From NCBI RefSeq assembly GCF_025148125.1, contig NZ_CP102267.1, positions 4,350,501-4,414,500 on the forward strand: a stretch of DNA of 64,000 nt, written 5' to 3'. The stretch's first letter is position 1, and the number at the start of each line of letters is the position of its first letter. Positions 21,638 through 55,309 of the stretch are shown one piece after another. Origin of the DNA: Blautia wexlerae DSM 19850. GTDB taxonomy: Bacteria > Bacillota > Clostridia > Lachnospirales > Lachnospiraceae. The notes under the pieces are model-generated. The model searched no databases and was not told where the DNA came from. It saw only the letters and a program-made list of their open reading frames with translations. The position numbers and the translations under genes are program-made.

Positions 21638-21902
21638 ACAGAACAACTCCTTTACTATAGAATTGGCAGGAGATTTGCCCGAGATAATACGGACTTTGCT
21701 ACTCGTGCTATTCATAAAAGGTGCGACAATATGCTGTGCTCAAGGGCAAATCATTTACGTTGACAAACGGGGTGCAAATCCTCCAAGGTGCAATCAAACT
21801 TAATCCTGCCTAAGACTATTGTAAGGCAAAAAGAGAAGTGAAAAAAGTAGTGGAGTCAGTATCCTATTTTCATTATAGGCTGAGATAAGCTTTCATGATT
21901 CG
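21638..21902 (-). ncRNA. Candidate bridge RNA region of the IS110 copy
   Basis: The 265-base stretch 5' of the transposase is non-coding. It holds a nine-base perfect stem GATTTGCCC/GGGCAAATC (21672-21680 with 21744-21752). Just outside it is CGTTGACAAA (21759-21768), nearly identical to the element-flank CGTTGACAAC. IS110-group bridge RNAs come from this position and carry loops matching donor and target, so the match may be functional. The RNA ends are not determined. Confidence 0.5.
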
Positions 21903-32013: not shown

Positions 32014-33012
32014 TTATAGTGTATTGATCTCTTTTTCCAGTTCCTGGACCGCTGCTATGACTGTCTCAAATGTCGGAACATCCCCATACAACATATCCTG
32101 CATAGAGTTATAGTCCGCTTCCAATGCTGCAAACCGATATTCCGGCGGGAGTAATTTTAATGTGCCCGGCACAGCCTCCGGGTACTTCGCCCATGATCTG
32201 GGATAGAATTTCATTTTGAAATCTACAACTTTCTTCAGGAGGTCAAGCCTGGAAAAAGCAGCTTCTTTAACCGGTGTTGCAGCCATGCGGTAGAGATCAT
32301 AATAATGTCTGGAATACCGCTGCGGCATTTCCAAATGTTCCGGTCTGTTCGCTTCATGGTGCAGGATTGTGGCTTTTTCCCAGAAGGTCCGTTCCGGGGC
32401 AACGGTAAGGATTGCAGTTTCTTTTTGCTCAAAAATCTTCGGATAATATTTTGCCGCGTAAGGTTCGATCTGCGCTGTTTTTGCAGGAGTCCACGCTGCC
32501 AGCGCACCAATCTCTAAACGGATCACCTGTAAGGTCGCCGTATTTGTAAAAAGGTGCGGATAGGCGAAAATGACCGTCTGTTTATCCTTTTCATCTATGT
32601 AGACATTTGCTTCACAACCGATTTCCTGGGATAAGCCGGCTTTGACTGCCGGGCAGAATGTTTCGGACAGAAATACCTCCGCACGCGCATTGGCTTCTTT
32701 GTTAAAAGCATCCTGTTTTGTATTGGAACGTTTCTCCCATGGTTCATCTTTGCCATATCCCAATACACGCCAGTCCAGAATCAAATCAATATCTTCTGAA
32801 AACCGGCTGATCAGGTGAAAGGCTTTTGAAAGGCTGGTACCTCCCTTAAAGGTGATGGACTCTTTCCATGGTGAGCGGTGAAATAAATAATCCAGCGTAA
32901 AACATACCCAAAAGTCTTTTTCTACGATGGCATCATTCAGTCCCATTTTATCTGCTGTATTTCTGAACAGCTCCCTGCGGTCGTTATCTGAAAGTCTTGC
33001 TATATTTCTCAT
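32014..33012 (-). CDS. AbiEii/AbiGii-type nucleotidyltransferase toxin
   Basis: The protein has 332 residues. The nucleotidyltransferase motif FKGGTSLSKAFHLISRFSEDIDLILDW lies near 56-82 (GG-T-S and paired Asp). The C-terminal region carries the helical part of AbiEii (TFWEKATILHHEANRP, RHYYDLYRM). In type IV systems the toxin modifies nucleic acid and aborts phage infection; here it may also stabilise the ICE. It overlaps the antitoxin gene by four bases. Confidence 0.85.
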   Translation of the reverse strand: MRNIARLSDNDRRELFRNTADKMGLNDAIVEKDFWVCFTLDYLFHRSPWKESITFKGGTSLSKAFHLISRFSEDIDLILDWRVLGYGKDEPWEKRSNTKQDAFNKEANARAEVFLSETFCPAVKAGLSQEIGCEANVYIDEKDKQTVIFAYPHLFTNTATLQVIRLEIGALAAWTPAKTAQIEPYAAKYYPKIFEQKETAILTVAPERTFWEKATILHHEANRPEHLEMPQRYSRHYYDLYRMAATPVKEAAFSRLDLLKKVVDFKMKFYPRSWAKYPEAVPGTLKLLPPEYRFAALEADYNSMQDMLYGDVPTFETVIAAVQELEKEINTL

Positions 33013-33626
33013 TGTACCTTTTCACCTCCACAAATCTGTCGTATCGTATCGTAAACCCAATCCGTAGACTCTGTTGCTTCCTTCAAACAAGCCTGTTTAT
33101 CCTTGTCTGTCAGTTTTTCGGAAAGCATCTGTATGACTTCTGGCGTAACATTCGATTTGCCAAGCGTTTTTAATGCCTGTATAACCAAACTTGTCATATA
33201 GGACAATCCGGTAATCTCCTTATTGGTTCGGTGCTTAAATTCCAGCTTTGTAGAGTTCCACTCGTAGGTCTTATATGGACCATCGCTGATATAGGACCAT
33301 ACTGCTGTTACCTGTGTTGAAAGACCTAACAGGTTCAATGCTGTATTCCCACATGGGGCAATCGTCCAGTGATAACTTCGTGCCAATGCGTTCGCCACCG
33401 CTTCCGGGTCTGCCGCCACATATTCATCCAGAAGTTTGCTATATTTTGGTTTTTCATAAACACCTTTCAAAATGCGGCGAAGCATACCTGCCTGTGTAAG
33501 CCGGTTTAAGTTCCGTCTTATGGTTTCCGTATCGGCAATATCCGCAAAATCAGAACTGATGAAAATAGTTCCTTCCGCCGCTGCTTTTATCTGCTCCTGA
33601 ATCTGTTTGGAATAGCCATTTGCCAT
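33009..33626 (-). CDS. DUF6088/AbiEi-type antitoxin
   Basis: The protein has 205 residues. An N-terminal winged helix (IFISSDFADIADTETIRRNLNRLTQAGMLRRILKGVYEKP) is followed by a conserved C-terminal domain (DPEAVANALARSYHWTIAPCGNTALNLLGLS). AbiEi proteins repress their own operon by binding inverted repeats and neutralise AbiEii. AAAGGAGGGG precedes the ATG. A 34-base palindrome lies 15 bases upstream of the start, with a second copy 140 bases further up. Confidence 0.82.
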   Translation of the reverse strand: MANGYSKQIQEQIKAAAEGTIFISSDFADIADTETIRRNLNRLTQAGMLRRILKGVYEKPKYSKLLDEYVAADPEAVANALARSYHWTIAPCGNTALNLLGLSTQVTAVWSYISDGPYKTYEWNSTKLEFKHRTNKEITGLSYMTSLVIQALKTLGKSNVTPEVIQMLSEKLTDKDKQACLKEATESTDWVYDTIRQICGGEKVQ

Positions 33627-33814: not shown

Positions 33815-34297
33815 TTAAGCACTCGGCAGGTAGATCCAGTCGTGCATCAGGCACACGCTGGGTTCGTCCTCCCTTGGAACCAGACGGTAGGTACATTCCC
33901 CATAGACCGTGCGTTTGTCCTCGATCTCCATGCCATAGGCTTTATAAAAGCGGTATTCCAGATTGGAGATGATACAGCGCAGGGTTTGCAGAGCCTCCCT
34001 CTGAGCTGATACGATCAGGTCACGGTCAATGCTGCGCTTCAAAAACAGCAACGACTTGTAAAGCTGTACCTCTGTGCGGTAAGGGCGGCAGTCTTTCGTT
34101 TCCAGCCATCCGCAAAAAGCGACCGGTCCGCTCTGGATCACACTGCGGTCCGGGTGATAATACTCGTAGCAGTCCAGGTTTGCCGTATTCAGAAGATAGA
34201 GCATTTCCCGGACTTCATTTTCCGGCATGTCGTAAAACCGCAAAAGTGAGCGGTAAAGATGGACATAGCCGGGAATGGAAATAATGGTATTTACCAT
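33815..34297 (-). CDS. Unknown ICE protein
   Basis: The protein has 160 residues and no family that I recognise. It looks soluble, with helices near 12-40 (HLYRSLLRFYDMPENEVREMLYLLNTAN) and 75-120, and a C-terminus CLMHDWIYLPSA. AAGGAGG precedes the ATG. It lies between the adhesin-sortase gene and the abiE pair. Confidence 0.55.
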   Translation of the reverse strand: MVNTIISIPGYVHLYRSLLRFYDMPENEVREMLYLLNTANLDCYEYYHPDRSVIQSGPVAFCGWLETKDCRPYRTEVQLYKSLLFLKRSIDRDLIVSAQREALQTLRCIISNLEYRFYKAYGMEIEDKRTVYGECTYRLVPREDEPSVCLMHDWIYLPSA

Positions 34298-34359: not shown

Positions 34360-37300
34360 CTATATTTCGTTATCTACTTTCACGAGTTTTCCCATGACAA
34401 GGAAGCGTCCTGTGCCGCCCGGCGTACAGGTAGAAAGGGTCAGTACCTTATCGCTGCAGGTCACAGTCACATCACTTTCCACCGCAGAACGTTCCTTCAT
34501 AGCTGTAAGCCAGGTAGTATAAGCACCGTCATCCTTCCAGGAAAGCTGCCAGGGAGAAGTTTCACTGCCGGATTCTTCCGGCTTTGCTGCAAAAGCCGCA
34601 AAGATCTCCATGACATAACCACCCTTCGGAGTAACGAGATACATCTGCCTGTGAGCATCAAAGTAACTTTGTTCATCGTACCGGTTCAGCAGCGCAAACA
34701 TGGAACCATCCCGCATATTATGACCATAAATGATCGTATTGCGGTCTGAAAAATCTGCCCGGTTTTCATAATCGGCAAACAGGCAGCCAACCTTGTTATA
34801 GGTTCCGTCATAAAGATGGTTCAGGTAATATTCGTTGTTGTCGGTCTGCGTTACCGGATAATTGAGCACCGTATCAGGAAGGGAAAGCCATCCGATGATG
34901 TCCGGTCCATTTTCACGGAGCGTTTCAAAGTCTACCGAAGGCAGGACAATATCGGTATCGTCCCGTTTTGGTTCTGTCGGATCGGGTGCCGACTCCGGGG
35001 AAGCTGTCTGCTCCGGTACTTCCACATATCCGGCAAGATCTCGATAGGCATCTTTACTCTCAGCATACTGGTTCAAGTCACGGAACACCAAAAAACCGCT
35101 GCCAAGAGCCACCAGAACGCAGAGTGAAAGGACAGAAACCCCGACAGCCGTTCTTTTCAGGGAAGTCCTGCTGTATTTTCCCTTTTTGAAATAATACACA
35201 GCAAATACGCTGCCGCCGATCAGTGCGGCTGCCAGCAGTCCGCCATACAGGAAAATATACGGATCATCCCCGGTCTGCGGTACCGGCTTTTGAGGGGTGG
35301 AAGGATTGGAGGGAACAGAAGGCTTTTCCGGGTTCTTTGGGTTCTTTGGGTTATCCGGCTTTTCCGGTTTTTCATTAAAGAACTGGACTGTAGATGTCTG
35401 ATCTGCCTTGATCTCCACCGTAGCGGCATCAGGAATGATGTAATCCTTGCTTGCCCGGTTTGCAACTTCTGTTACGGTATAAATACCGACACGAAGGCCC
35501 TTAACTTCAATCACGCCGGATTTTGGAGTGGTGAATGTCTCGCAGTAGGAGCCGTCCGCACTCTTAACCTCGATGGCAAAACCATCTTTGCGCCCGTCGC
35601 TGGAATTCTTTGTGATCTTTAAGTTGCCGCGGTAAGCCTCATTGGTAAATCCGTGCCCGGCTTCTCCATTTTCCACAACTGCGACCTGTCCATCTTCTGT
35701 GATGGAAAAATAGTAAGCGTTTGAGTCAGGCTGATAGCCCTCCGGCGCTTTGCTTTCTTTGATAAAGTAGCCGCCAGCCAGAAGGTTTTCCGCCGTATGA
35801 TAGCCTGCATCGGTTTCTTTCAGCGTACCGATCTTTTGATCGTCAGGATCATATTCCTGGTTGGCGTTGGAATCCGCATACAGGTCAAACACTGCACCGG
35901 ACAGGAAGCGCAGGAAAGAATTCTTGTCTTTCTTATCCTCCTTTTCCACAGGGGAAGGTTCCTCCACAGCTTCGGTTTTGGTTACCTGAACACTGCCGCG
36001 GATCAGGGTGTTTTCCACACGGATCTCGATATGCTGTCCGTCTGCACCGATATATACATGGTGCTGCTGCGGGCTTACCGTATAAAGGTCAGGGGCAGAG
36101 ATCTCCTTGACGATCCAGTGTCCGTAAGGAATGTTCTCAAAGGAAAAACTGCCGTCTTTTCCGGTAATAGCAGTAAGCAGCGCATTTTCTTCAGTAAATT
36201 CTTCGGTATCAGGTCTAAACAGACCCATGAGCGCACCGGCAAGCGTGACATCCTCGCCGCCTTCCGGGTTTTCCCCGACTTTTACACCGTCTACACGCCC
36301 ACGGAGAAGTTCATTGGAAACAGCCTCGCCTTCATTGACAAGGATCTGTACCAGGGCGGTTTCCTGACCAGCATACTCAAAGACAACCGGATATTCCTGA
36401 TCCGAAAGGATATAGGCGCCGTTGGTTGTGCGTTCCTTGACATAATAGCTGCCAAAAGGCAGGTCGGAAGCGAAGGAAGCGCTGTAACCGCCGGATTCCA
36501 CAGACGAAACAGAGACCACTTCCAGAAGTCCACCTGCCGGGATCACGCTGCCATCTGTCGCCGTCAGGTCTGCGGAAGCATAAAGTCCAAAGGAAATATC
36601 CTTATATTCCTCGTTCATGCCAAGACCGAACAGGTCATCGGTCTCCATTGCCTTGAAAAGTGTGACATCCACTTTCTGGCGTTCGTCATAAAGACCGGCC
36701 GCTGTCTGTGTAACCTCTACGGTCTCACCCGCATAGGTCAGTTCCACATATTCCGGTTGAGGATTCAGCACACAGCCGGAAGGAGCCTGACGTTCCTCCA
36801 GCCGGTAACGGCCGAGATAAAGGGGCCCGCTTTTTGCTGAACCGTCCTCGCCGGTCGTAAGTGTTTCCACAACCGTATCTTTTGCTGCCCGCAAGGTACC
36901 GTCACCGGTATAAATATCTTCATCTGCGATCACATCATAGACCGCTCCGGGAAGTCCGGCAACCTCATATACCGGTTGGTACAGTCCGTCGTTTTCCTGG
37001 ACAGAAGCAAATACTTCTCCGGTCTTTGTGATGGTAAGCTGGCCTTTCTGCGGCATATTGTACTGCGTGACCGTCACAACCGCCTCGCTGCCGTCAATGG
37101 TAAACGGTACCGGCTGGTCGGAAAGCACATAGCCGTAAGGAGCAGCTACCTCATAAAGTTCATAATCCCCGGCGGCCAAAGGCTCCGGCAGCATCAGCCA
37201 GCCCTCGTCAGAAACATAGAAGGTATCCAGTGTTTCCGGGTTCGGATAGTAGACGGTCTGGGTGATAAATTCCCCGGTGGAAAGATCCTTGATCTGAAAA

Positions 37301-39279
37301 CCGGTTCCGGTCACAGGGATAATCTTTCCGGTCTCTGCGTCACATTTTTCAACTTTCAGACGGGCTGTGATGGTGCGGTTGTTCAGGATATAGCTGTAAG
37401 TCTTTCCGTCAGAGGAAATGAATACCGTAAAGTCCGGGACAAAGGCTTTGCCTTCCTCGCCTGCGATTTGATGGACCGTATAATGCCCATACGGAAGCGG
37501 TTTACTGGAAGCAAAACCATCCGCATCCGTGGTAAGAAGGTCGCGTTCACTTTCCTTTGCCGCGTCATAGCTTCCGGCTGCCTTTAAGTAAATTTCAAAG
37601 ACTGCGCCTGCTTCCGGGCGTTCGATGATACCGGCATTGGGATCGTCGGTATTTTCGCCCTCAGGCACATCCGGGTCCAGGTCATCGGTGTGCTTGACAA
37701 GCTGGATATTTCCGTAAATAACCGTTTCCGTCACCTGATTTTCTGTGGTATTGAGTTCCACTTCATACAGGGAAGGGGATGCACCCACTTCATAAACGGT
37801 TTCATTCAGAAGATACCCGGTGCTCGGTTCGATCTCCCGGATCGTCCAGCTATCCCCGCACACATAATAGCGAGTCATAAAGCTGCCATCCGGCCCGGTA
37901 GTATAAGTGTCGATCAGTTCGCCATCACGGAAGATCCCATAGGTCGCCCCTGCAAGCGTGGCGTCCCCCTGGGCATTTCCGGTATCAGCGTCGCTCTTTA
38001 CCACATGGACGCGGAACTTCTTCAGGATATTGCTGAAATGTACCGAAGAAGTCTGCCCGCTTTCAATGGTCACGTACTGTGCGGAAGGGGTCACATAGCG
38101 ATCCACCGGAAGTTCTTTTACCAGATAGGTTCCCGGCAGGAGCTTCTTTTCAATCTGGCCGTTTTCTCCGGTCGTAACTTCCTCATTGACTTCATTTCCC
38201 AAAATGTCCGTACCGGAGATATGGAAGGTGATACCGGAAACAATGCCGTCCTCACTGGTCTTGACAAGTTTTGCGGTACCGTAAGTTTCCGTTTTGATCT
38301 TTACAAAGAAGGAAACCGGATCGCTGGCGCCGGTCATCATGGTCTGGTAGCCTGGTCTGCCCCAGATCAGCATGTCGTTTGCCACCGGGATATTCTTTCG
38401 GAATTCAAACAGCACCGGGTCCATCATCATCTGCCTGCTGGTAAAGGTGTATTCATTTCCGTTTCTTGTCACAGAAACGCCGCTGCCTTTCAAAGCCTCC
38501 AGATCGATCTTCAAGTTGTTGGTATCTGTGACCGTCAGGGTATAGACCTTTTTTTCTACATCCCATTTCAGTTCCAGTTCCGGTGCTTCGCTTTTCTTAG
38601 AAGAAGTAAAGGAAGGTACTGTGGAATGGGAAGCGACCTGTGCAAGAATCCAGTCATAGGCTTTTTCTGCCGGTCGTCCGGCGATCACGCTGAAATACTG
38701 GTCGGCGTCTGCGTGGCCGTTTCCGTGGCGGCTGTACGGATCGCTTCTAAGTTGCTGCTGGTATTCCCAAAGGATGATCTGGGTTGCCATCTTATAGTCA
38801 TCCTCGTTGATTCCGGAAACAGGGAGCGCCGCACCGGGTTTCCAGCCATAGATCGCAGTCAGGGTGATCCCCCTCCTTGCCTCGGCAGGAAGCAGGTTCA
38901 GGTATTGGCTGTTGGTCCCGCTTTCCGAAACATAGGTATTTTCCGAAGTATGGTAAGGAATCCCGCTCTCCACACAGTAAACCTGGTGGCTGATCCCGTC
39001 AGAATCCGTCAGCATATAGTGCCGGTAAGCATTGCCCCCGGAACTGGTGTGTACATCGATGGTTCCGTCTGCATGGTAGGCAAGATAGGTGTAAGGCGCC
39101 GGGGCACGGTAGTGGTTCCCATCAGAGCCCACATACTGGTCGCCCAGCCAGGAGCTTGCCGTCTGTCCGACAGACATGGCAAAAGCCTGAGCCGGAAGAA
39201 GCCCCAAAATGCTTGCCATACAAAGCAAAAACGCCAACAGCCTGCGAAAGCCGCGGCGTCTGGTTATGATATGTTCCAT
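34360..39279 (-). CDS. Thioester/CnaB surface adhesin fused to a class B sortase
   Basis: The protein has 1639 residues. A signal peptide ends near 34 (LPAQAFA). A thioester-type domain has Cys102 in VYCVESG and Gln167 in ATQIILWEYQ. Nine CnaB/SpaA-like isopeptide modules run from about 335 to 1310 (for example KLVKTSEDG, VHVVKSDADTG, LKVEKCDAETG; most end in a ProGlu-type VKE/REIE motif). A proline-lysine linker, sorting-like motif VPQTG (1333-1337) and membrane helix (about 1341-1362) follow. Instead of ending, the frame continues through a second helix (about 1376-1398) into a complete sortase: His1520 in YGHNM, Cys1618 in LSTCTPGG, Arg1625. It would let donor cells hold recipients during transfer. 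No stop, start or ribosome site separates the two halves, so this is either a true fusion or a lost stop codon. Confidence 0.85.
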   Translation of the reverse strand: MEHIITRRRGFRRLLAFLLCMASILGLLPAQAFAMSVGQTASSWLGDQYVGSDGNHYRAPAPYTYLAYHADGTIDVHTSSGGNAYRHYMLTDSDGISHQVYCVESGIPYHTSENTYVSESGTNSQYLNLLPAEARRGITLTAIYGWKPGAALPVSGINEDDYKMATQIILWEYQQQLRSDPYSRHGNGHADADQYFSVIAGRPAEKAYDWILAQVASHSTVPSFTSSKKSEAPELELKWDVEKKVYTLTVTDTNNLKIDLEALKGSGVSVTRNGNEYTFTSRQMMMDPVLFEFRKNIPVANDMLIWGRPGYQTMMTGASDPVSFFVKIKTETYGTAKLVKTSEDGIVSGITFHISGTDILGNEVNEEVTTGENGQIEKKLLPGTYLVKELPVDRYVTPSAQYVTIESGQTSSVHFSNILKKFRVHVVKSDADTGNAQGDATLAGATYGIFRDGELIDTYTTGPDGSFMTRYYVCGDSWTIREIEPSTGYLLNETVYEVGASPSLYEVELNTTENQVTETVIYGNIQLVKHTDDLDPDVPEGENTDDPNAGIIERPEAGAVFEIYLKAAGSYDAAKESERDLLTTDADGFASSKPLPYGHYTVHQIAGEEGKAFVPDFTVFISSDGKTYSYILNNRTITARLKVEKCDAETGKIIPVTGTGFQIKDLSTGEFITQTVYYPNPETLDTFYVSDEGWLMLPEPLAAGDYELYEVAAPYGYVLSDQPVPFTIDGSEAVVTVTQYNMPQKGQLTITKTGEVFASVQENDGLYQPVYEVAGLPGAVYDVIADEDIYTGDGTLRAAKDTVVETLTTGEDGSAKSGPLYLGRYRLEERQAPSGCVLNPQPEYVELTYAGETVEVTQTAAGLYDERQKVDVTLFKAMETDDLFGLGMNEEYKDISFGLYASADLTATDGSVIPAGGLLEVVSVSSVESGGYSASFASDLPFGSYYVKERTTNGAYILSDQEYPVVFEYAGQETALVQILVNEGEAVSNELLRGRVDGVKVGENPEGGEDVTLAGALMGLFRPDTEEFTEENALLTAITGKDGSFSFENIPYGHWIVKEISAPDLYTVSPQQHHVYIGADGQHIEIRVENTLIRGSVQVTKTEAVEEPSPVEKEDKKDKNSFLRFLSGAVFDLYADSNANQEYDPDDQKIGTLKETDAGYHTAENLLAGGYFIKESKAPEGYQPDSNAYYFSITEDGQVAVVENGEAGHGFTNEAYRGNLKITKNSSDGRKDGFAIEVKSADGSYCETFTTPKSGVIEVKGLRVGIYTVTEVANRASKDYIIPDAATVEIKADQTSTVQFFNEKPEKPDNPKNPKNPEKPSVPSNPSTPQKPVPQTGDDPYIFLYGGLLAAALIGGSVFAVYYFKKGKYSRTSLKRTAVGVSVLSLCVLVALGSGFLVFRDLNQYAESKDAYRDLAGYVEVPEQTASPESAPDPTEPKRDDTDIVLPSVDFETLRENGPDIIGWLSLPDTVLNYPVTQTDNNEYYLNHLYDGTYNKVGCLFADYENRADFSDRNTIIYGHNMRDGSMFALLNRYDEQSYFDAHRQMYLVTPKGGYVMEIFAAFAAKPEESGSETSPWQLSWKDDGAYTTWLTAMKERSAVESDVTVTCSDKVLTLSTCTPGGTGRFLVMGKLVKVDNEI

Positions 39280-39318: not shown

Positions 39319-40431
39319 TTATTTGCTGTCCTTGTCGTCAAAATCATCCTCGGAAAGATATTCCGGTTCCCCGTATGCCTCATCCGGGTCAAAGCCTTCG
39401 CCATAACCGTCATCCTCAAATTCCGCATCGTCCTCGGCCTGCTGTTTCGGACGCACGATTTTTACATAGTAACCGATCCCGCCGACCGCAAGTAAGGCAG
39501 CAAGGATAAACAGGATCGTGCCGACGCTGCCGGTTTCTTTCTTCGGCTTTTCCGGTTCTGCCGGTTTTTCAGTTTCCGCCGGCTTTTCTTTTCCTTTGCA
39601 GCCATTTAAGTCATTTTTGCAGACCGGACAGCCGGTATTAACCTTTCCTGCCTCACATTTTTCTGTGCAGTTGCAGCTTTCTTCCTGGGGAATCATGCTC
39701 ATGCTGCCATTGTTCTTTTCTGCAAGCGCCATCAGGTCGGACTCTGTGACGCCGTTTAAGAAGTAGACATTGTTATCTTCCCGTTTCCCGTCGATCACCA
39801 GATAAAAGACATTGCCCGCGTCCGTAGTGATGGTGTAAAACTGCTTTTCCCCATCCGTACCGCTGATGTTGTCCTGTACCGTTCCGGTGCCTTCCGGGGT
39901 AAATGCACCTTCCGGGATCGCAGAAGTATTTTCCTGCTGTCCGGTACTGTTATCTGAACCGGAAGAATTTCCGCCGCCGGAAGGGGTTGCAGCGTTTGAG
40001 CCGGAAGGTTTTTCTTCCTTAGGCGGTTTTGTCTGTGTACCGGACGGACTCTGGGGTGCTGCCGTAGCAGGTTTCTTTTCAGGAGCCGGTTCTTTGTAAT
40101 ACGGATTATCCAGCTTTACCACATCAGAACGGTTGCCGGCATAATCTTTTGCGTATATGCTTACCTGTTTTTCTGTTCCTGCATAATCTTTTAGTGCAAC
40201 CGACGCTTTCCCATCGGTGAGGGAGTTGATACGGTTTTCATCAACAAAGACCGCCTCCACGCCGGATAGATCGTCACTGCTTTCTATTTTCAGGGCATCG
40301 CCCTCTAGGGAAGCAGTCAGCGTTGGCGGTGTGGTGTCTTTGGAACCGCCGGCATGAGCCGTTACAGGTAATGCGCTGACACTTACAAGAAGCGTAAGCG
40401 CCAACAGCAGGGAAAGTTTTTTAAGCCTCAT
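39319..40431 (-). CDS. DUF4366 mobile-element surface protein
   Basis: The protein has 370 residues: a signal peptide (about 1-28), an Ig-like N-terminal domain (TPPTLTASLEGDALKIESSDDLSG), a long Pro/Ser/Gly-rich linker, the DUF4366 core (QFYTITTDAGNVFYLVIDGKREDNNVYFLNGVTESDL), a cysteine cluster (ESCNCTEKC...GCPVCKNDLNGC) that may bind metal, a membrane helix near 302-325 and an acidic cytoplasmic tail. The ATG at 40,431 sits six bases after AGGAGG; an ATG two codons earlier touches the ribosome site. The family belongs to the clostridial ICE transfer machinery. Confidence 0.85.
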   Translation of the reverse strand: MRLKKLSLLLALTLLVSVSALPVTAHAGGSKDTTPPTLTASLEGDALKIESSDDLSGVEAVFVDENRINSLTDGKASVALKDYAGTEKQVSIYAKDYAGNRSDVVKLDNPYYKEPAPEKKPATAAPQSPSGTQTKPPKEEKPSGSNAATPSGGGNSSGSDNSTGQQENTSAIPEGAFTPEGTGTVQDNISGTDGEKQFYTITTDAGNVFYLVIDGKREDNNVYFLNGVTESDLMALAEKNNGSMSMIPQEESCNCTEKCEAGKVNTGCPVCKNDLNGCKGKEKPAETEKPAEPEKPKKETGSVGTILFILAALLAVGGIGYYVKIVRPKQQAEDDAEFEDDGYGEGFDPDEAYGEPEYLSEDDFDDKDSK

Positions 40432-40666
40432 GCACATCCTCCTTCTCCTGCGGCAAAACAGTTTCCGAAGGGGCTGCCTGCTGTGATTTCAAAAAATCCG
40501 CAAGCTGCTGGGGCGTTAGTTTGAAACTGCGCGCCACCGCCACATAATCGGTATTTTCCAGCTCCGTTTTCTGTTCCTCCAGCTTATGGAGCTTTGCCTG
40601 CATTTCCGCAATCTTTGTTTTGGTCTTTTCAATTTCCTTTTCCAGTTTTTCAATTTTAGGATTCAA
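40421..40666 (-). CDS. DUF4315 coiled-coil protein
   Basis: The protein has 81 residues: an N-terminal coiled coil (KIEKLEKEIEKTKTKIAEMQAKLHKLEEQK) followed by a short helix-turn-helix-like part (FKLTPQQLADFLKSQ). It is invariably found beside DUF4366 and CD1108 genes; the role is unknown. It overlaps the DUF4366 start by 11 bases. Confidence 0.8.
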   Translation of the reverse strand: MNPKIEKLEKEIEKTKTKIAEMQAKLHKLEEQKTELENTDYVAVARSFKLTPQQLADFLKSQQAAPSETVLPQEKEDVHEA

Positions 40667-40684: not shown

Positions 40685-43372
40685 TTAAGGCAGACGCCCA
40701 AATGTATAAAAATGCTGCTGCCAGTAGCTTGTATTGATGTTAGCATAAGAGATCGGGTCTCCGCAGTGGATCATCATTCCATTTCCTACATAGATCCCTA
40801 CATGGCTTGCGCCGCTGGTATTGTAGGTCCCCTGGAAGAAGATCAGGTCGCCCGGTTTTGCATCTGCGCTTGATACCGGCGTACATACACCTAAAAGACC
40901 GTCCGCAGTCAGCCTTCCAAAATTCCAGCCGACGCCGCAGTTGTTGATCACCCAGGACACATAGCCGGAACAGTCAAAGGAAGTGGAAGGGCTTGCGCCT
41001 CCCCATACATACGGATAGCCAAGATATTTTTCCGCCTCGGCCATCATTGCGGCAAACTGTTCATCCGCAAGGGCTTCCGGTGGAATGTCATAATCGAAGT
41101 AGTTTCCTGTGCCGCCTGAACCAACTTCCGGCAGGTGCCGTTCGCTGGTATCGCCGGTATCGGCAAAATACAGGGGATTCAAATACTGGCCGTCAACCAG
41201 GACCTCTAAGTGCAGGTGGGGACCGGTGGAATTTCCGGTATTCCCGACCTTTGCGATCACATCCCCGGCTTTGACCTCCTGCCCGGCAGAAACAAGGATC
41301 TGGGAACAGTGCCCGTATTTGGTTGTCAGGGTATGTCCTTCGTATGCCTCGCCTTCAATGGCAACACATAAGCCATAACCGCCGGCATTTCCCGCAAGGG
41401 TAACTGTTCCGTCATGCCCGGCAAGGATCTCTGTGCCATCCGGCATCCCGATGTCCACACCGGTGTGATAGTTCTTTTCCCCACTGATGGGATGTACCCG
41501 GTAGCCGTAGTAGCTGGTCACATAAGGGAGCCAGTTGGTGCCAAAGACATTTTTGACATACTGGCGGTTTCCTTTTGTCTGCAGCAGGATCTCGCAGATC
41601 TCTTTCTGGTCTGCGTTCATCCGGGAAACGACCAGGTTTTCCAGAGGTGTGACCGTGAGCTTGACATTTAAGATGCGCCATTCATAAGGCACTTCCTCCT
41701 GGGTTTCTTCCCCGGTTTCCGGGTCAACGGAAGTTTCGGTGCGGTAACGGATCTCGGTTTCTTCTGAAAAGGACAGGGTATATTGTTCCTGGAAAAGCTG
41801 CCGCAGCACGCTTTCCACTTCATCGTAAGTAAATCCCTGATAAGCAGAAGTCAGATACCCCATCAGCACATACGGGTCATGCTCAATCGCACCCAGGTTA
41901 TACCGGTATTCGTCATAACCGGGGCGGTCTGATTCCACCCTGTCTATTTCCATTTGCAGATCTGTTTCCCACTCGGTATAGGTAAGCTCCGCCTGATTGA
42001 TGTCCTGATCGTCTGCGAGATAGGTAGAAGCAGCCAGACTTCCCAGACCGCCGGTCCCAATATTGGAGAACGTGGAAAACAGGGACATGATCAAGAAAAT
42101 TACCAAAAGGAGAAGCAGGAGGACAAGGCAGATCATAGGGTGCCGTTTGACCGCATGGACAATACCGACGCTGACCCTCTCTGTTGCGACTGCGGCATTT
42201 TTTGCCTGTTTCCCGGCTTCACGGGCAGCCTTGGCATACTGCCTTTTCAGTTTTTGTTTCTGCCATATCCGGGCAATCGCATATTTCTTCAGCTCCGGGT
42301 GGTCGCTAAGAGCCTGCCGGTAAGCAAGTCTTGCGTTTGCTTTTGCTAATTTTTGCTGTAATTTCGCTGCCTTTCGGTAGGGGGCAGTTTTATGCCGGTG
42401 ATATGCCGTGCGAAGCCCTGCCTCGCCCACAAGTTCAGAGCGGTGGGCTGCCTTGATGCCCACATTTTCATCCTCTGCCTCATAAATCTTTTTATGAGCG
42501 TAACCAATGGCAGTATTGGCGCCCGCCTTGACCGGACGCAGGGGTACAGGTCCTTTTACATGGACCTTTTGGGATTTGACCTCCTTTTCAAATTTTAAGT
42601 GTTTTTTGGCTTTTCCGGTCTCCGGGTCGGAAACCGTCTCCATGCGCAGTTTCTTCCGGGCAGGTAGACGATTTTGCGCCTGCTCTGCTTTTTGTGCAGT
42701 CCGTTCCGCCTTCCGTCTTGCATGGGTGAGCTTTTTATCCTTTGTCTCCGGCGGTAGTTCATCCGCAGTAAATTCCAGCTTGGATGTTTTCGGCGGTTCG
42801 CTATCCATACCCTTTTCCTTCTGCGCTGCCTGTTCCTCCGCCTGTGCCGCTTCCTGAAAACGCTGCTGATATTTGTTCCCATGCTGGTGTGTTCGGTAAC
42901 GGTGTTCCTGACCGGATCTGTCTGTGCCGTTCGGTGGGGCTGAGCCTTCGGAAGAAGGAGCATATTTTCCGGTATCATGGTCTGTCACATCCTCTGTTAC
43001 AAAAGAACGCCTGGAAGCCTCCTGCCGGAAATTGCTTCGCACGTTGTCCTGTATCAGGGGCGCTGTCCTGGTAGCATCCGGTGTCTCAAAGTGTTCCGAA
43101 AAACCATCCAAAGCGGCTGCATAAGCCTCGCCCTGTTTCAACAAGGACGCCGGTGTTTCCGGTGATAGCTGGGAAAATTCCGTCTGTACAGGGATGTCCT
43201 GCCTGTGGGTTTTGCCGGGGACAGAAGAAGGGGTGTCCCGTGCCCTGCGCAGATCAAAATCCTGTGCGGTCTGCCTAGCTGCCGGTTGATCTTCCCCGTG
43301 GGAATCACGCACCGGCATCCGGGTATCTTTGCGCTTCCTTTGAAATTCCCTGTCGTGTGCCATTGTTCTCAC
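40685..43372 (-). CDS. CD1108-type wall hydrolase, M23 plus NlpC/P60
   Basis: The protein has 895 residues. The first 400 are charged and probably cytoplasmic. A membrane helix lies near 412-435 (CLVLLLLLLVIFLIMSLF). An M23 endopeptidase domain follows, with YHTGVDIGMPDG near 634 and HLHLE near 719. An NlpC/P60 domain has catalytic Cys in FDCSGY near 799 and His in ASHVGIYVG. It is the VirB1/Orf14-like enzyme that opens peptidoglycan for the transfer channel. It is preceded by VirB4 and followed by DUF4315. Confidence 0.87.
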   Translation of the reverse strand: MRTMAHDREFQRKRKDTRMPVRDSHGEDQPAARQTAQDFDLRRARDTPSSVPGKTHRQDIPVQTEFSQLSPETPASLLKQGEAYAAALDGFSEHFETPDATRTAPLIQDNVRSNFRQEASRRSFVTEDVTDHDTGKYAPSSEGSAPPNGTDRSGQEHRYRTHQHGNKYQQRFQEAAQAEEQAAQKEKGMDSEPPKTSKLEFTADELPPETKDKKLTHARRKAERTAQKAEQAQNRLPARKKLRMETVSDPETGKAKKHLKFEKEVKSQKVHVKGPVPLRPVKAGANTAIGYAHKKIYEAEDENVGIKAAHRSELVGEAGLRTAYHRHKTAPYRKAAKLQQKLAKANARLAYRQALSDHPELKKYAIARIWQKQKLKRQYAKAAREAGKQAKNAAVATERVSVGIVHAVKRHPMICLVLLLLLLVIFLIMSLFSTFSNIGTGGLGSLAASTYLADDQDINQAELTYTEWETDLQMEIDRVESDRPGYDEYRYNLGAIEHDPYVLMGYLTSAYQGFTYDEVESVLRQLFQEQYTLSFSEETEIRYRTETSVDPETGEETQEEVPYEWRILNVKLTVTPLENLVVSRMNADQKEICEILLQTKGNRQYVKNVFGTNWLPYVTSYYGYRVHPISGEKNYHTGVDIGMPDGTEILAGHDGTVTLAGNAGGYGLCVAIEGEAYEGHTLTTKYGHCSQILVSAGQEVKAGDVIAKVGNTGNSTGPHLHLEVLVDGQYLNPLYFADTGDTSERHLPEVGSGGTGNYFDYDIPPEALADEQFAAMMAEAEKYLGYPYVWGGASPSTSFDCSGYVSWVINNCGVGWNFGRLTADGLLGVCTPVSSADAKPGDLIFFQGTYNTSGASHVGIYVGNGMMIHCGDPISYANINTSYWQQHFYTFGRLP

Positions 43373-43396: not shown

Positions 43397-45871
43397 TCAC
43401 GCTTTGGTCCCCGCTACTTCATCCGGTCTTGTGGTAAGCACGCTGTACAACAGTGTGTCCTTCGGGAAGTGGTCCACAAAGGGGATGATCACATTTCCAA
43501 AGAACAAAAGCCCCTCGCCGGGACCGGAATGGGTCACATAGGAAAGCTGGTGCGGGGAGATCCCCAACTGCTTTGCCAAAATCTGACGGTCTCCCTGGGC
43601 CTGGTTGAGCATATAGATAAAGTCTGAGTTCTCAAAAATGTTCTCAATCTCACGGGAAGCCAGAAGGTCCTTGACATTCTGCGTTAAACCTGATGGGATT
43701 CCGCCCCATTTACGGAAGCGTTTCCAGATCTCCACGCTGAAACTTCCTGTCTGTCCTTTCAAAAGAAGGTGGAATTCGTCGATATAGAACCAGGTTGTTT
43801 TATGTTTGGAACGGTTGGCCGTGACACGGTTCCACACCGCATCCTGCATGATCAAAAGCCCGATTTCCTTTAAGGCTTTTCCCAGTGATTTAAGCTGGAA
43901 ACACAGTACCCGGTGTTGATCCATCTGGATATTGGAACGATGGTTGAACACGTTAAGGGAACCATTGACATAGATTTCCAGCGCCGTTGCGATATTCTGT
44001 GCCTCCGGTTCAGACTGTTTCAAAAGCAGCTCGTAAAGATCGCCTAAGATCGGCATATTTTCCGGGCATGGGTCCTGCAGGTATTCCCGGTACACCAGTC
44101 TGGTACAACGGTCGATGATCGTCCTTTCGATAGGGGAAAGCCCTTCTTTGCCCCCGATGATAAGGTCACACAGCGACAGGATAAAATCACTTTTCAAAGT
44201 GATCGGGTTTTCATCATCGGAATAGTCCAGATTGATGTCCATAGGGTTGATGTAGTTCGTGGAAGTAGGGGAAATATCAATGACCTGCCCCTGGGAACCG
44301 AACTGCTGTACCAGCGGCCCATACTCATTTTCCGGGTCGGCGATAATGATGTCGTCCTCCGTCAGAAGGAACACATTGACGATCTCACGCTTGGCAGAGA
44401 AAGATTTACCGCTTCCTGGGGTACCGAGAAACAGCCCATTGGGGTTTTTCAGCGTTTTTCTGTTCGCCATGATCAAGTTATTGGAAAGGGCGTTCAGGCC
44501 GTAATACAACGCCTCGCCCTCCTGGAACAATTCACAGGTGGTAAACGGTACAAAGATCGCTGTGCTGCTGGTCGTAAGCCCGCGCTCAATTTCAATCTGG
44601 TTCGTACCAAGAGCAAGCGAGGACATAAGCCCCTGTTCCTGCTGGTAATCCAGCCGTTTTAAGGCACAGTTGTATTTCTGTGCCACACCCGAAGCGGCAA
44701 AAATATCATTGAACAGCTTTTGGCGTTTGGCAGCGATATTTTCCACCAGTACCGTCACAAGGAACATGCGCTCATTGCGGCTCTGTAAATCCTGCAAAAG
44801 ATTTTTTGCTTCCTCTCCATAGGTGGCAAGGTCGGTGGGAATGATGTCCATATCATACCCGGATCGGACCGCTTTCTTTTGTTCCTCAATGGTCATTTTC
44901 TGCAGGTCCGACATTTTACGCTTGATGTTTCGGATTGCCTGTGCCTGGTCGATAGACTGAATATGCAAGTTGACAGTCACGGCGTCGTTTAAGTCAAGAA
45001 GATCCGCTAAAAGCCGGTCAGTAAGCTCCGGCGCCAAAATCTGCAAAAAGGAGACGGCACCGGAATGGTCGCCTACCCGGAATGTCTTTCCATCCTTTGA
45101 AAAAGACAGCCCGGATGGGGAAATGAAGTCTTTGGTAGAAAGACCGGTCTTAGGCAGATCCGACCACTGGAAATGAAACTTTTCCTGACCGTCCGGGTGA
45201 AGCTGGCCGTGAAGAAGTTCCAGACGTTCCAGTCCGTTTAAGGATCTTGACTGGACTCCAAGGGTTTTGAAATTTGCCAGCACATCCGTTTCAATGCGTT
45301 CCAGACGCATTTTCGCAGTACGCAGGTCATCTGCCTCGATCCCAAAGGTAATGTATTTGCGTTTGGTGAGACCGTTATTTCCTTTCTGCAACTGGTTCTT
45401 TAACATATCCCCGTATTCCTTGCGGATTCCGTCATACTCGTCGCCGCGGGGAGGGATTTCAATGCTTCTGGTAAAATCCTGCATATTGGCCCGCTGGTTG
45501 ATAAAGGTAAGCTGCACATGGATCGAAGCATCGAAGTAATTTAAGAAATCGCAGTAACCCTCGAAGATCTGTGCTTTATCATCTGCCTGTGCAAGCTGAT
45601 AGTTAATATCAAAAAACTGTACCGTTTTGGTGTAAAGGGTATCGGTCAACCGGCAGATCCCATCCCGGTACATTTCACGGTAGGGAATGCTCTGCTGGAC
45701 CGTCTGCGGGGCATCTGCTTTCAGCCCGGCAAAAAAGCCGCCTTTTTTAGACGGCTTGGAACGGGCAGACTTAGTTTTGCCCTGCTTTGCATCGGATCTG
45801 GTCTTTTTGGCCTGCCTGATATTTTTTTGCAGACGCTTTTCCTGAGCTTCCTGCTGCTTGTTTTTTGGCAA
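43397..45871 (-). CDS. VirB4-type conjugation ATPase
   Basis: The protein has 824 residues. A basic N-terminal tail is followed by the VirB4 N-terminal domain, then Walker A FLGTPGSGKS near 482, Walker B TWFYIDEFHLLL near 694, and GLTQNVKDLL. It powers assembly of the type IV secretion channel. TTG at 45,871 is taken as the start because AAGGAGG lies eight bases upstream. The gene overlaps prgI by 101 bases, an unusually long overlap whose basic coding content is shared in two frames. Confidence 0.88.
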   Translation of the reverse strand: MPKNKQQEAQEKRLQKNIRQAKKTRSDAKQGKTKSARSKPSKKGGFFAGLKADAPQTVQQSIPYREMYRDGICRLTDTLYTKTVQFFDINYQLAQADDKAQIFEGYCDFLNYFDASIHVQLTFINQRANMQDFTRSIEIPPRGDEYDGIRKEYGDMLKNQLQKGNNGLTKRKYITFGIEADDLRTAKMRLERIETDVLANFKTLGVQSRSLNGLERLELLHGQLHPDGQEKFHFQWSDLPKTGLSTKDFISPSGLSFSKDGKTFRVGDHSGAVSFLQILAPELTDRLLADLLDLNDAVTVNLHIQSIDQAQAIRNIKRKMSDLQKMTIEEQKKAVRSGYDMDIIPTDLATYGEEAKNLLQDLQSRNERMFLVTVLVENIAAKRQKLFNDIFAASGVAQKYNCALKRLDYQQEQGLMSSLALGTNQIEIERGLTTSSTAIFVPFTTCELFQEGEALYYGLNALSNNLIMANRKTLKNPNGLFLGTPGSGKSFSAKREIVNVFLLTEDDIIIADPENEYGPLVQQFGSQGQVIDISPTSTNYINPMDINLDYSDDENPITLKSDFILSLCDLIIGGKEGLSPIERTIIDRCTRLVYREYLQDPCPENMPILGDLYELLLKQSEPEAQNIATALEIYVNGSLNVFNHRSNIQMDQHRVLCFQLKSLGKALKEIGLLIMQDAVWNRVTANRSKHKTTWFYIDEFHLLLKGQTGSFSVEIWKRFRKWGGIPSGLTQNVKDLLASREIENIFENSDFIYMLNQAQGDRQILAKQLGISPHQLSYVTHSGPGEGLLFFGNVIIPFVDHFPKDTLLYSVLTTRPDEVAGTKA

Positions 45872-48032: not shown

Positions 48033-48896
48033 CTATCTTGCATTAAATATGGATTTGGATAACGAACCTGTCTTAAACAGGGCAAAGGCCAGCAGTACCG
48101 TATAACCCGCCGTTCCCCAGATCGCGCCGTGCACGTCGCCGGACGATGGGATAGACTGGACCAGCACTGCATAAATGGCAACACAGATCAGAATCAAAAA
48201 ACCCTGAAAACCCAGGGCAAAAAGGGAACGCAGATACCCGGTTCCCATTTGTCCCCATTCCCGGTTTGCCATTGTGGAAAACGGGATCGGTGCAAGGCTC
48301 ACGGTTAAATAAATCTCGATCATACGGCCATATACAATGACAAAGATCACGATGGACAGTACCCACATACACAGATTGATGATGTTGGTTTCCAGCCACA
48401 GTCCAATCAGTTCCCACATTCCCATTGCTTCAAGCTGGGTTTCCAGATCAGACAACGCCGCCTGCACATCCAGGTTCCCGTTTATGACACCGGCACTTTG
48501 CGACACCACATTTTGGGCCACATCAAAGACCGCCATCACAATCGTAAAACAGTTGGTGAGCAGGTAAGTGGCAACAAAAGTCTTGAAAATCCACTTGAAG
48601 ATGTTGAATGTATCGAATTCGTGCATGTTGTTCTTTTCGAGAATCATCTGGATCAGTTCATACACCAGAACAAAGGTCAGGATCATGCCCGCAATGGGAA
48701 TGACGACAGTTTCCGAAAGATTTTGGATCATGGAAAATACGCCGCCATTCCAGCCCTGCGGGGTCTGTCCTACTTGATTTGCCACATCCGCAACCTGATT
48801 GTTGACGGAGTTGAAAATGCTGGTGTACTGTCCGGTGATCGCATCGATCAAGCCCTCTTTAATCCAGTCTGTTATCCGTTCAAACAGACTGCCCAT
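48033..48896 (-). CDS. VirB6/TrbL-type channel protein
   Basis: The protein has 287 residues with at least five membrane segments (about 65-85, 105-130, 180-200, 225-250 and 255-275) and an N-terminal amphipathic helix SLFERITDWIKEGLIDAITGQ. It is the polytopic inner-membrane channel component. The Maff2 remnant ends ten bases before its ATG, the usual neighbour. Confidence 0.82.
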   Translation of the reverse strand: MGSLFERITDWIKEGLIDAITGQYTSIFNSVNNQVADVANQVGQTPQGWNGGVFSMIQNLSETVVIPIAGMILTFVLVYELIQMILEKNNMHEFDTFNIFKWIFKTFVATYLLTNCFTIVMAVFDVAQNVVSQSAGVINGNLDVQAALSDLETQLEAMGMWELIGLWLETNIINLCMWVLSIVIFVIVYGRMIEIYLTVSLAPIPFSTMANREWGQMGTGYLRSLFALGFQGFLILICVAIYAVLVQSIPSSGDVHGAIWGTAGYTVLLAFALFKTGSLSKSIFNAR

Positions 48897-53208: not shown

Positions 53209-54783
53209 TTAAAGTTCCATATCCTGTTGTTTGTGTTTCGTCTGCGCCGGGGCGTTTTTCTGTGCTCTCTTCTCGTCAGCCTTATCCTGCAAGACTTCTT
53301 TGAGGGGCTGCTTCTTGGGCGGCTCTTTGCTTTCCTCTGTGCCGGGTGTGGCTTTCCGTACCCAGTAGCGGATGTCCCACAGCTTCTTCAAATCTTCCTG
53401 CACCTCGGTCAACGGTACTTTCAAGTCTGCGATTTCGTCCACAAGCTTCGCCTGTTCCTGCAAAAGCTCCTTTTTCGTGCTGTCCTTATCGTCCGGGTGC
53501 TTGGCAAGGTAGGCACTGGCTTTCTCAAACCGGGCAACCTCCGGGTGTTCCAGCTTGAATTTTTCCTTAGTTTTCTTGAAAAATATCTTCTGGTATTTCT
53601 CATAAACGGGCTTACATTCCTTACAGTCCGTCCGGGCGGCAAGGATAGCGTCAATCACGTTGCTGCGGGTTTCCTTTGGCTTCATCTGCTTTCGGTAGTC
53701 GGCGGCAGATTTCCCGGACGTTTCTATAAAGTTTTCCAAATCCTCCACGGTGGAAAGTCCCTTTCTCTGGAGATAGGACAGGGCTTCGCTGACTGCCTTT
53801 AAGTCTTTGGAAGTCCCCCGGCTTTGTCCCGCCCGTGTCCAGCTGCTCCGTTCTGCCTTTCGTATCTCCATATACTTCATCAGCAGATTGGGAAGAAAGA
53901 CCGCTTCCTCCGCAGCTTTTTGGGCAAGCAGTTCATTCCGCTTTTCGCTAAGCTCCGCAATCCAGCCTTTGAGATTTTTAATAAGCTGCCGGATGGACTT
54001 CATCAAACTATTGGCGGCTTTGATTTCTCGGTTCAGGTTGCCGATGTTCGTCTGAATCCCACGCTTTTCCATCTGCCGGACAGCAGCCCCTTCATGGACG
54101 GTAGGGATAATATCAAGCCCCTGTCTTTCGTAAGAACGGAGATCTACTCGTTCCGGGCGGTTGTTGGCTTCCAGATAGCGGTTTTGGATGACCTCCCATT
54201 CATGCCGCCAGATTTCGCCATATTTGCGGTCGTTCCAGTCAACCGTATCTTCCTTGTGGCTTTTCCACCTGCCGGACGGGAGCTTGATTCGTTCCCCGTT
54301 CTTATCAAGTTCATAGACCTTGCGGCTCTTGGGAAGCCATTTCCCACGCTCATCCATTGCCCGCATGGTCAGCATGACATGGGCGTGTGGGTTTCCGTCC
54401 CCTTTGTCATGGATGGCAAAATCCACGCACATTCCTTTGGAAACAAACTGCTGGCGGCAGAAATCCCGTACAAGGGCGGCGTACTGGTCGGGCGGTATCT
54501 CTCTGGGAATGGAAAGCACCCACCGCCTTGCAAGCTGGGAGTTCCATTGCTTCTCAACAGCTTCGGCAGCGTTCCAGAGGGTGTTGCGGTCTGTGTACTC
54601 CAGGGGAGCGTTTGCCGGGAGCAGGATTTCATTGTGGACGATACCACGCTTTTCCGGGTAGTGTTTTACTTCCTGGTCATATTCACAGAACAGCTTTTCG
54701 CCGCTCTGGTAAGCAGCGGCGGCAACCGCAGACTGGCGGTGGCTGCGCTGCACAATAGAGATTTCGTTGTGTGGACAGGGCAT
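53209..54783 (-). CDS. MobA/MobL-type MOBQ relaxase of IME-D
   Basis: The protein has 524 residues. The relaxase domain starts HNEISIVQRSHRQSAVAAAAYQSG and holds the histidine motif HDKGDGNPHAHVMLTMR near 126-142. The rest is helical and charged, with coiled coil near 220-260. The ATG at 54,783 follows AAGGAGG; the longer frame upstream covers a terminator. Its candidate nic site is at 55,809. Confidence 0.87.
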   Translation of the reverse strand: MPCPHNEISIVQRSHRQSAVAAAAYQSGEKLFCEYDQEVKHYPEKRGIVHNEILLPANAPLEYTDRNTLWNAAEAVEKQWNSQLARRWVLSIPREIPPDQYAALVRDFCRQQFVSKGMCVDFAIHDKGDGNPHAHVMLTMRAMDERGKWLPKSRKVYELDKNGERIKLPSGRWKSHKEDTVDWNDRKYGEIWRHEWEVIQNRYLEANNRPERVDLRSYERQGLDIIPTVHEGAAVRQMEKRGIQTNIGNLNREIKAANSLMKSIRQLIKNLKGWIAELSEKRNELLAQKAAEEAVFLPNLLMKYMEIRKAERSSWTRAGQSRGTSKDLKAVSEALSYLQRKGLSTVEDLENFIETSGKSAADYRKQMKPKETRSNVIDAILAARTDCKECKPVYEKYQKIFFKKTKEKFKLEHPEVARFEKASAYLAKHPDDKDSTKKELLQEQAKLVDEIADLKVPLTEVQEDLKKLWDIRYWVRKATPGTEESKEPPKKQPLKEVLQDKADEKRAQKNAPAQTKHKQQDMEL

Positions 54784-54814
54784 TTTGTGTTCCTCCTTTC
54801 CGTTTTTGGACATA

Positions 54815-54847
54815 GAAAAAGCAGGATACCTTTTCAGATTTCCTGCT
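54815..54847 (-). terminator. Terminator after the membrane protein gene
   Basis: AGCAGGA and TCCTGCT arms are followed on the minus strand by TTTTTC. Confidence 0.7.
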
Positions 54848-54886
54848 TGTTGTGCCGCTGGGGGCGGCGGGTATTTAGTAATACAT

Positions 54887-55309
54887 TTACATAGTTTTGT
54901 GCAAGTACCAAAGTCGCACAATAAATACAATTTGTCCAATAGCATAAGCCCCAATAATAGTGAAACATGGGACTACTGTCATATATCCGGTGAAAATCAA
55001 AGCAAAAATAGAAACAGCAATCGTAACATTCATTACCTTGAAGCCACTTGCCATAGCAGCATTACTAAGCGAAATATTTCTCTCGTCATTTTCCTCTATT
55101 TCCATTTCTTTGGTTTTCTTAACGAACAAGTCGCACACACCAGATACAATCAGCAAAATTCCAATGAGAGATGTACCTACTACTATTAAGTCGGGACGTG
55201 GCACAGGTATTATTTCATGTACTCCCAAACCGTATGTTAGCAATCCTCCCAGTAGAATAATCATTCCTGTAACTGTCATTAAAATCAACAACCTTTTTTT
55301 CATAATCAA
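54887..55309 (-). CDS. Four-helix membrane protein
   Basis: The protein has 140 residues. Membrane segments lie near 7-27, 42-62, 90-107 and 112-132, with a charged loop KKTKEMEIEENDERNISL between the second and third. The pattern (short cytoplasmic loop with NDER) is common in small proteins paired with an XRE regulator. It overlaps that regulator gene by four bases. The function is unknown. Confidence 0.65.
   Translation of the reverse strand: MIMKKRLLILMTVTGMIILLGGLLTYGLGVHEIIPVPRPDLIVVGTSLIGILLIVSGVCDLFVKKTKEMEIEENDERNISLSNAAMASGFKVMNVTIAVSIFALIFTGYMTVVPCFTIIGAYAIGQIVFIVRLWYLHKTM

Follow-up and report, generated by a model that had tools for sequence, protein, structure and literature searches.

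A predicted thioester adhesin and a class B sortase share one conserved reading frame in an apparent mobile element of Blautia wexlerae

The window analyzed here is a stretch of 64,000 nucleotides from Blautia wexlerae DSM 19850 (contig NZ_CP102267.1, positions 4,350,501 to 4,414,500), and coordinates below are those of the window unless another genome position or locus is named. A single ATG-started open frame of 1639 aa (34360..39279, reverse strand) encodes an adhesin-sortase fusion. The initial annotation, made from the letters alone, had placed a sortase substrate and its enzyme in this one uninterrupted frame and had listed a signal peptide, a thioester domain, nine CnaB modules, a VPQTG motif, and two helices ahead of the enzyme; Pfam, hydropathy, and AlphaFold2 bear out both the frame and this order. 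The predicted signal peptide spans residues 1–34 (39178..39279, reverse strand; hydropathy peak at residues 10–37, cleavage site placed by eye). It precedes a thioester domain at residues 100–216 (38632..38982, reverse strand; PF08341 above cut-off), in which Cys102 and Gln167 are the presumed thioester pair. The stalk consists of nine SpaA/CnaB modules at about residues 334–1306 (35362..38280, reverse strand; PF17802, E = 4e-84; outer limits approximate). The frame carries both features expected of a TIE adhesin: a thioester domain with its Cys and Gln, and a CnaB/SpaA stalk of nine PF17802 stretches.

Beyond the stalk, the sorting motif VPQTG occupies residues 1333–1337 (35269..35283, reverse strand), as read from the sequence and its conservation in relatives. 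Hydropathy, AlphaFold2, and alignments predict a first membrane helix, the sorting-signal helix, at about residues 1341–1364 (35188..35259, reverse strand), and basic residues mark a predicted cytosolic loop, KKGKYSRTSLKR, at residues 1365–1376 (35152..35187, reverse strand). A second predicted helix, the sortase anchor, follows at residues 1377–1399 (35083..35151, reverse strand; hydropathy and AlphaFold2); by hydropathy the second hydrophobic stretch runs from about 1374 to 1402 and gives way to a linker leading to the sortase. All elements of a sorting signal are present, namely the pentapeptide VPQTG, the hydrophobic helix at 1341–1364, and the basic tail KKGKYSRTSLKR. This signal does not stand at the end of the protein, and helix 2 and the sortase follow it in the same chain in all 54 related loci with the junction. 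The directions in which the two helices would cross the membrane are suggested by the basic loop.

The C-terminal domain covers residues 1449–1639 (34363..34935, reverse strand) and matches TIGR03064, the NCBIfam class B sortase family, as well as sortase B structures in the PDB. The TIGR03064 score of 171.6 bits exceeds the curated cut-off of 153.75, a Pfam sortase match spans residues 1466–1633, and His1520, Cys1618, and Arg1625 are present exactly where the initial annotation had put them. An AlphaFold2 model of residues 1313–1639 built from 37 sequences (pLDDT 77, pTM 0.75) comprises helices at 1341–1367 and 1374–1416, a low-confidence linker, and a sortase fold. The top Foldseek match of this model is S. 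aureus sortase B (1QWZ, E = 1.7e-19), and B. anthracis sortase B is also among the nearest structures. By family score, catalytic residues, and predicted fold, the domain is a class B sortase.

Upstream of the fusion, on the same reverse strand, lie genes for a CD1107-like protein (39319..40437; Pfam PF14283), a DUF4315 protein (40421..40666), and a peptidoglycan hydrolase with M23 and NlpC/P60 domains (40685..43372). These are followed by genes for a VirB4/TraG-type transfer ATPase (43397..45871; PF19044), a TrbL/VirB6-like transfer protein (48033..48896; PF19478), and a MobA/MobL relaxase (53209..54954; PF03389). In 48 of 58 related loci, the fusion has a relative of the CD1107-like gene upstream. 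Downstream, a 160-aa gene without a Pfam match (33815..34297, reverse strand) serves as a marker of the element backbone through its recurrence beside the fusion. It was found at 11 places in 10 of 358 family genomes: nine beside the fusion, one beside the two-gene pair L230 described below, and one in genome G474, beside an adhesin without an adjacent sortase. T4SS, hydrolase, and relaxase genes thus neighbor the fusion, whose sequence context looks like that of a mobile element of gut bacteria.

Several other features of the window deserve mention. Three large serine recombinases with DUF4368 (24268–26058, 49082–50752, and 59868–61493), a second relaxase (11731–13146), and an IS110 transposase (20399–21715) suggest nested or neighboring elements. 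A short way downstream of the fusion (32014–33626), an AbiEii toxin-like gene and its DUF6088 partner are likely a toxin-antitoxin pair. A scan of the window's frames for C-terminal sorting signals returned only a 120-codon frame ending at 3875 on the forward strand, which lies inside the span of a 2600-aa ORF and looks spurious.

A homologue search with residues 1240–1639, admitting proteins of 0.55–1.75 times the query length, found 565 proteins, of which 120 matches were listed; because of the length window, stand-alone sortases could not appear. Among the matches listed, 99–100% of the query stretch was covered, all 120 contained SpaA and sortase domains, most were about 1635 residues long, and VPQTGD was present in 121 of 121 proteins when the query is included. 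When an alignment of C-termini was used to scan genome contigs, 80 of 421 loci were kept, and viral contigs gave 12. We defined as relatives the 58 loci whose C-terminal part is at least 45% identical (L087–L140 and L167–L170). The initial annotation had asked whether homologues spanning the junction have one or two ORFs, and had named close homologues split at this point as the refuting case. The junction is read through in one frame in 54 of the 58, and a stop followed by a new start was found there in none (0/58). The other four (L129, L133, L136, and L139) are truncated remnants without the junction, in which the sortase is kept and the adhesin is gone. Neither chance nor an assembly slip accounts for the fusion, given that 54 of 58 loci share the uninterrupted frame at this point.

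The thioester domain, CnaB stalk, and sortase share a single frame in 46 of the 58 loci. Five more have the stalk and sortase in frame: L104 and L124 lie at contig ends, L116 has a frameshift inside the stalk, and in L094 and L122 the thioester part is not in frame; L131 starts at a contig end. The fused layout is conserved across many genera, and its bearers include Blautia, Emergencia, Flintibacter, Longibaculum, Anaerotruncus, Acetatifactor, and Eubacterium plexicaudatum. Some loci share one genome, so locus counts are not independent; the 47 full-length rows used below (the window plus 46 loci) represent 43 distinct proteins, and alignment A2 holds the window plus 36 of 46 distinct C-termini. 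Genome searches for adhesins, sortases, and the marker gene covered samples of a phylum, a family, or a class. In plasmid and phage collections no record had one place covering 80% of the query, and the phage-labelled record MT836027.1 holds 69% of it at 82% identity, up to the record's end.

Two further candidate fusions were rejected. At genome position 2094905 of B. wexlerae, adhesin and sortase proved to be adjacent frames of 1729 and 249 codons, and in G386, where the frame was listed at 2409 aa, the sortase lies in a frame of 266 codons. Other sortase joins were also seen. In a metagenome-assembled genome, a frame that by eye resembles phosphoglycerate mutase runs into a sortase (L144:7914–10298, 794 aa) and may be an artefact; L219 (G629:C5, 482 aa) has a signal-peptidase-I-like domain, recognized by eye, in frame with a class B sortase, and in L213 (G410:C10) a signal-peptidase-I-like gene and a sortase seemingly stand as adjacent genes.

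The sequence VP[QR]T[GS] is present in all 54 junction-holding loci, with Gly in the last place in 49 and Ser in 5; among the 47 full-length rows, Gly1337 is replaced by Ser in three. Cys102, Gln167, Val1333, Pro1334, Thr1336, Asp1338, His1520, Cys1618, and Arg1625 are invariant in all 47. The catalytic Cys is found in 53 of the 54 loci, the exception being L140, which keeps the motif, the hairpin, and the His; its sortase is presumably dead because the frame ends ahead of the Cys. Two residues before the motif, Lys1331 (35287–35289) is Lys in 46 of 47 full-length rows and Arg in one. Over 11 hand-picked pairs, dN/dS was 0.06–0.17 for the sortase and 0.06–0.16 for the thioester and CnaB parts, and both halves therefore look to be under selection. 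The ratio was 0.09–0.75 for the motif plus hairpin (defined in 10 of 11 pairs) and 0.11–1.0 for the linker where defined. The hairpin evolves faster than the domains, suggesting that its sequence is weakly constrained beyond hydrophobicity. Together, the invariant residues and these ratios suggest that the motif and active site stay fixed and that the intervening parts drift.

Comparison with more distant relatives reveals three layouts: a far sortase, an adjacent two-gene arrangement, and the fusion. The adjacent arrangement occurs in two loci. L191 encodes an adhesin 45% identical and a separate sortase 36% identical to the corresponding parts of the fusion, the adhesin ending in TAG, one base before the sortase ATG. 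Its gene order is as in the window (NlpC/P60, CD1107-like, a relative of a 126-aa gene, ThyX), with no match to the window's 160-aa or DUF4315 gene. A scan of viral contigs with the L191 adhesin gave no relative. In L230, whose sortase is 34% identical and whose adhesin has no detectable similarity to that of the window, the adhesin end overlaps the sortase ATG by eight bases (ATGCGTAA), and the backbone is close to the window's (VirB4 90%, 160-aa gene 86%, ThyX 82% identity). A separate observation concerns L231 (G498:C21), where the gene for a small protein ending in VPQTGDSSN plus a helix is followed, some 50 bases on, by the open frame of a separate class B sortase.

Adhesins of the same family without a fused sortase were collected at 40 hand-picked places (44–55% identical over the matched part), with ten partial, contig-end, or more distant places left out; in one of these ten, G600, a sortase match below the cut-off lies some 2 kb downstream. 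One unfused copy lies in the B. wexlerae genome itself (2506746–2510756; 51% identical over the stalk), and in this one copy examined the sortase comes after VirB4. Where read, unfused adhesins carry signals such as TPKTGDD followed by a helix and a Lys tail. A same-strand class B sortase lies within 55 kb downstream in 23 of the 40 places, at 0.9 kb in L191 and at 15.3–51.5 kb in the 22 others (median of the 23, 22.4 kb). The remaining 17, many of them near contig ends or on contigs without a typed length, have no same-strand sortase within this distance, and in G716, G474, and G689 none was found even though at least 50 kb of downstream sequence is present. Where at least 30 kb of contig is known, a downstream sortase accompanies 19 of 22 unfused adhesins versus 0 of 6 fused ones, the latter scored by eye (Fisher p = 0.0002, relatedness ignored). 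The stand-alone sortases L141–L166 have no CD1107-like neighbor within the flanks compared, some of which are short.

The fused sortases form one clade in two trees. In the first (116 rows thinned to 70), the clade has SH-aLRT support of 100 with the four remnants counted among the fused rows. In the second (67 rows, with remnants omitted, fused rows cut to 15, and eight long-branch names set aside), bootstrap/SH-aLRT support is 100/100. The far-layout sortases sampled fall in a distant clade. Those of L191 and L230 pair with each other (98/93), and a sister relation of this pair to the fused clade is not supported by the trees. The adhesin half varies within the fused group: L138 (4857–10610) carries TED_2, five SpaA, and three T-Q ester domains on a full sortase, and L140 (7013–10828) carries five SpaA and two T-Q ester domains, with the sortase end lost; both share the fusion's kind of linker, VPQTS, and hairpin. 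The simplest history consistent with these sequences would be a single fusion of coupled neighbors with later exchange of the adhesin. Because distant elements with a comparable gene order carry split forms, the fused layout may have originated in a stop codon lost long ago, and, given L191 and L230, we infer that the loop KKGKYSRTSLKR joins a former sorting-signal tail to a former sortase N-terminus.

We consider it probable that adhesin, sorting signal, and sortase act as one chain joined by a membrane hairpin, in which the sortase likely cuts VPQTG between Thr and Gly and would then anchor the adhesin in the cell wall, where it likely serves mating contact. A sorting signal's tail ends in the cytosol, and a sortase begins there. 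In the predicted hairpin, helix 1 would bring the chain into the cytosol and helix 2 would lead it back out, as if two oppositely directed membrane anchors had been linked through their cytosolic ends; because the join is on the predicted cytosolic side, the topology of both parts would be kept. The enzyme would act on the motif in its own chain or in that of a sister copy, either in cis or in trans, and become linked to Thr1336 of the adhesin through a thioacyl bond. Resolution of this intermediate by an amine of the cell wall, for example lipid II, would place the adhesin on the wall and leave the hairpin-anchored sortase behind, and the thioester would bind amines on the partner cell's surface. 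One dedicated enzyme would thereby arrive with each adhesin, whatever sortases a new host has. Based on the transfer-gene setting and by analogy to the adhesin of pLS20 (see below), the fusion likely helps hold mating cells together.

A search of the 4.69-Mb genome with a codon pattern for VPQT-x-D (x = G, S, A, T, R, C, or W) gave a single site, that in the fusion, and the reversed control gave none. If the enzyme reads its motif strictly, the only target would therefore be the chain itself or a sister copy. Three other adhesins inspected in this genome end in APKTGD, GPKTGD, and TPKTGD signals. As a counterpoint, six further TIGR03064 matches exist in the genome, of which five exceed the cut-off and none lies in the window, and host sortases could also cut VPQTG. 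Also weighing against the proposed processing are the difference between VPQTG and the NPQTN of S. aureus sortase B, the Ser at position 1337 in some relatives, the truncated sortase of L140, the faster evolution of the hairpin, and the example of the pLS20 adhesin, which needs no sortase. A more specific version of the probable chain-and-hairpin reading, which we advance tentatively and with less than even confidence, is that the adhesin sorts itself: its dedicated sortase would cut in cis, for about one turnover, and hand the adhesin over from the thioacyl-enzyme, and display would not depend on host sortases, which would suit an element that moves between genera. As part of the same tentative proposal, motif, hairpin, and sortase may form a conserved cassette for exchangeable adhesins, as L138 and L140 would illustrate.

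Alternatively, the sortase could act mainly in trans on proteins of other hosts or elements, the fusion being a neutral stop loss between coupled genes. The split but coupled relatives L191 and L230 would fit such an origin, a faster-evolving hydrophobic join could be tolerated, and the four remnants retain a sortase without an adhesin. However, no two-gene form occurs among the 58 loci at or above 45% identity, and the genome offers a single VPQT-x-D site; we regard this alternative as unlikely. Similarly unlikely is a protein that is never cut, with the adhesin held by the two helices and the sortase either serving other proteins or simply displayed beside it. The predicted hairpin alone could hold the adhesin, and L140 keeps motif and hairpin without a catalytic Cys, but the motif persists in 54 of 54 loci while the neighboring linker varies, the catalytic triad is intact in 47 of 47 full-length rows, and the window's frames include no other credible sorting-signal protein, all of which makes permanent tethering improbable. 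It is very improbable that an internal start yields a separate sortase, making the gene two overlapping genes in effect: helix 2 contains in-frame GTG and TTG codons, and one or more ATGs occur 5–75 codons past the motif in 26 of 47 full-length rows, yet the other 21 have none, the window lacks an in-frame ATG in residues 1301–1470, and its GTG and TTG codons are preceded by matches to AGGAGG of at most 3 of 6 bases. Finally, a recent stop loss in B. wexlerae itself, offered by the initial annotation as the simple alternative, or a sequencing or assembly error, would agree with the established separation of substrate and sortase genes but can hardly be correct and is rejected because the fusion is so widely conserved, with one frame across the junction in 54 of 58 loci spread over many genera, and because the assembly consists of a single contig.

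The initial annotation had also called the arrangement a new layout. This stands in that a literature search, whose scope was titles and the beginnings of abstracts, with preprints and most subscription papers outside it, returned no description of a natural chain combining a sorting signal with a sortase; it does not stand for the sequences, many copies of which are already in databases. The novelty is the lack of a published description only. Protein names are borne by 3 of the 120 matches listed (of 565), and all three are named only as sortases. Engineered sortase fusions for protein purification are known. With both partners in one conserved chain, enzyme and substrate would be paired one to one, and a mobile element would bring its own wall-anchoring enzyme to any host. 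The conserved chain would also offer a simple in vivo system for comparing cis and trans sorting, and it points to a likely contribution of covalent adhesins to mating contact in mobile elements of gut Firmicutes.

As a rule, a sortase and its substrate are made from different genes and come together in the membrane. The class B sortases of S. aureus, B. anthracis, and C. difficile are separate enzymes acting on other proteins, and Spy0129 of S. pyogenes is likewise encoded by a separate gene. S. aureus SrtB, B. anthracis BA4783, and C. difficile SrtB share with the fusion the sortase fold, the His, Cys, and Arg residues, and a predicted N-terminal membrane anchor. Unlike these enzymes, however, the fusion's sortase comes after its own sorting signal, and VPQTG differs from the NPQTN motif named for S. 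aureus sortase B. The sister unfused adhesins have the same CnaB stalk, but their sortase is separate, 15–52 kb downstream on the same strand in 22 of 40 places. Spy0129 is also a class B sortase and is reported to serve an adhesive pilus (PDB 3PSQ; PMC3019223).

According to a review (PMC12857230), wall-anchored adhesins frequently take the place of pili in Gram-positive systems. A close parallel in domain order and conjugation setting is the TIE adhesin p34 of pLS20, which has a thioester domain followed by CnaB-type modules, is encoded with conjugation genes, and is needed for efficient B. subtilis conjugation in liquid (PMC8092201). This adhesin works without a sortase or sorting signal (PMC8092201), so anchoring is not always needed. 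Compared with p34, the fusion adds both a sorting signal and a sortase within the chain.
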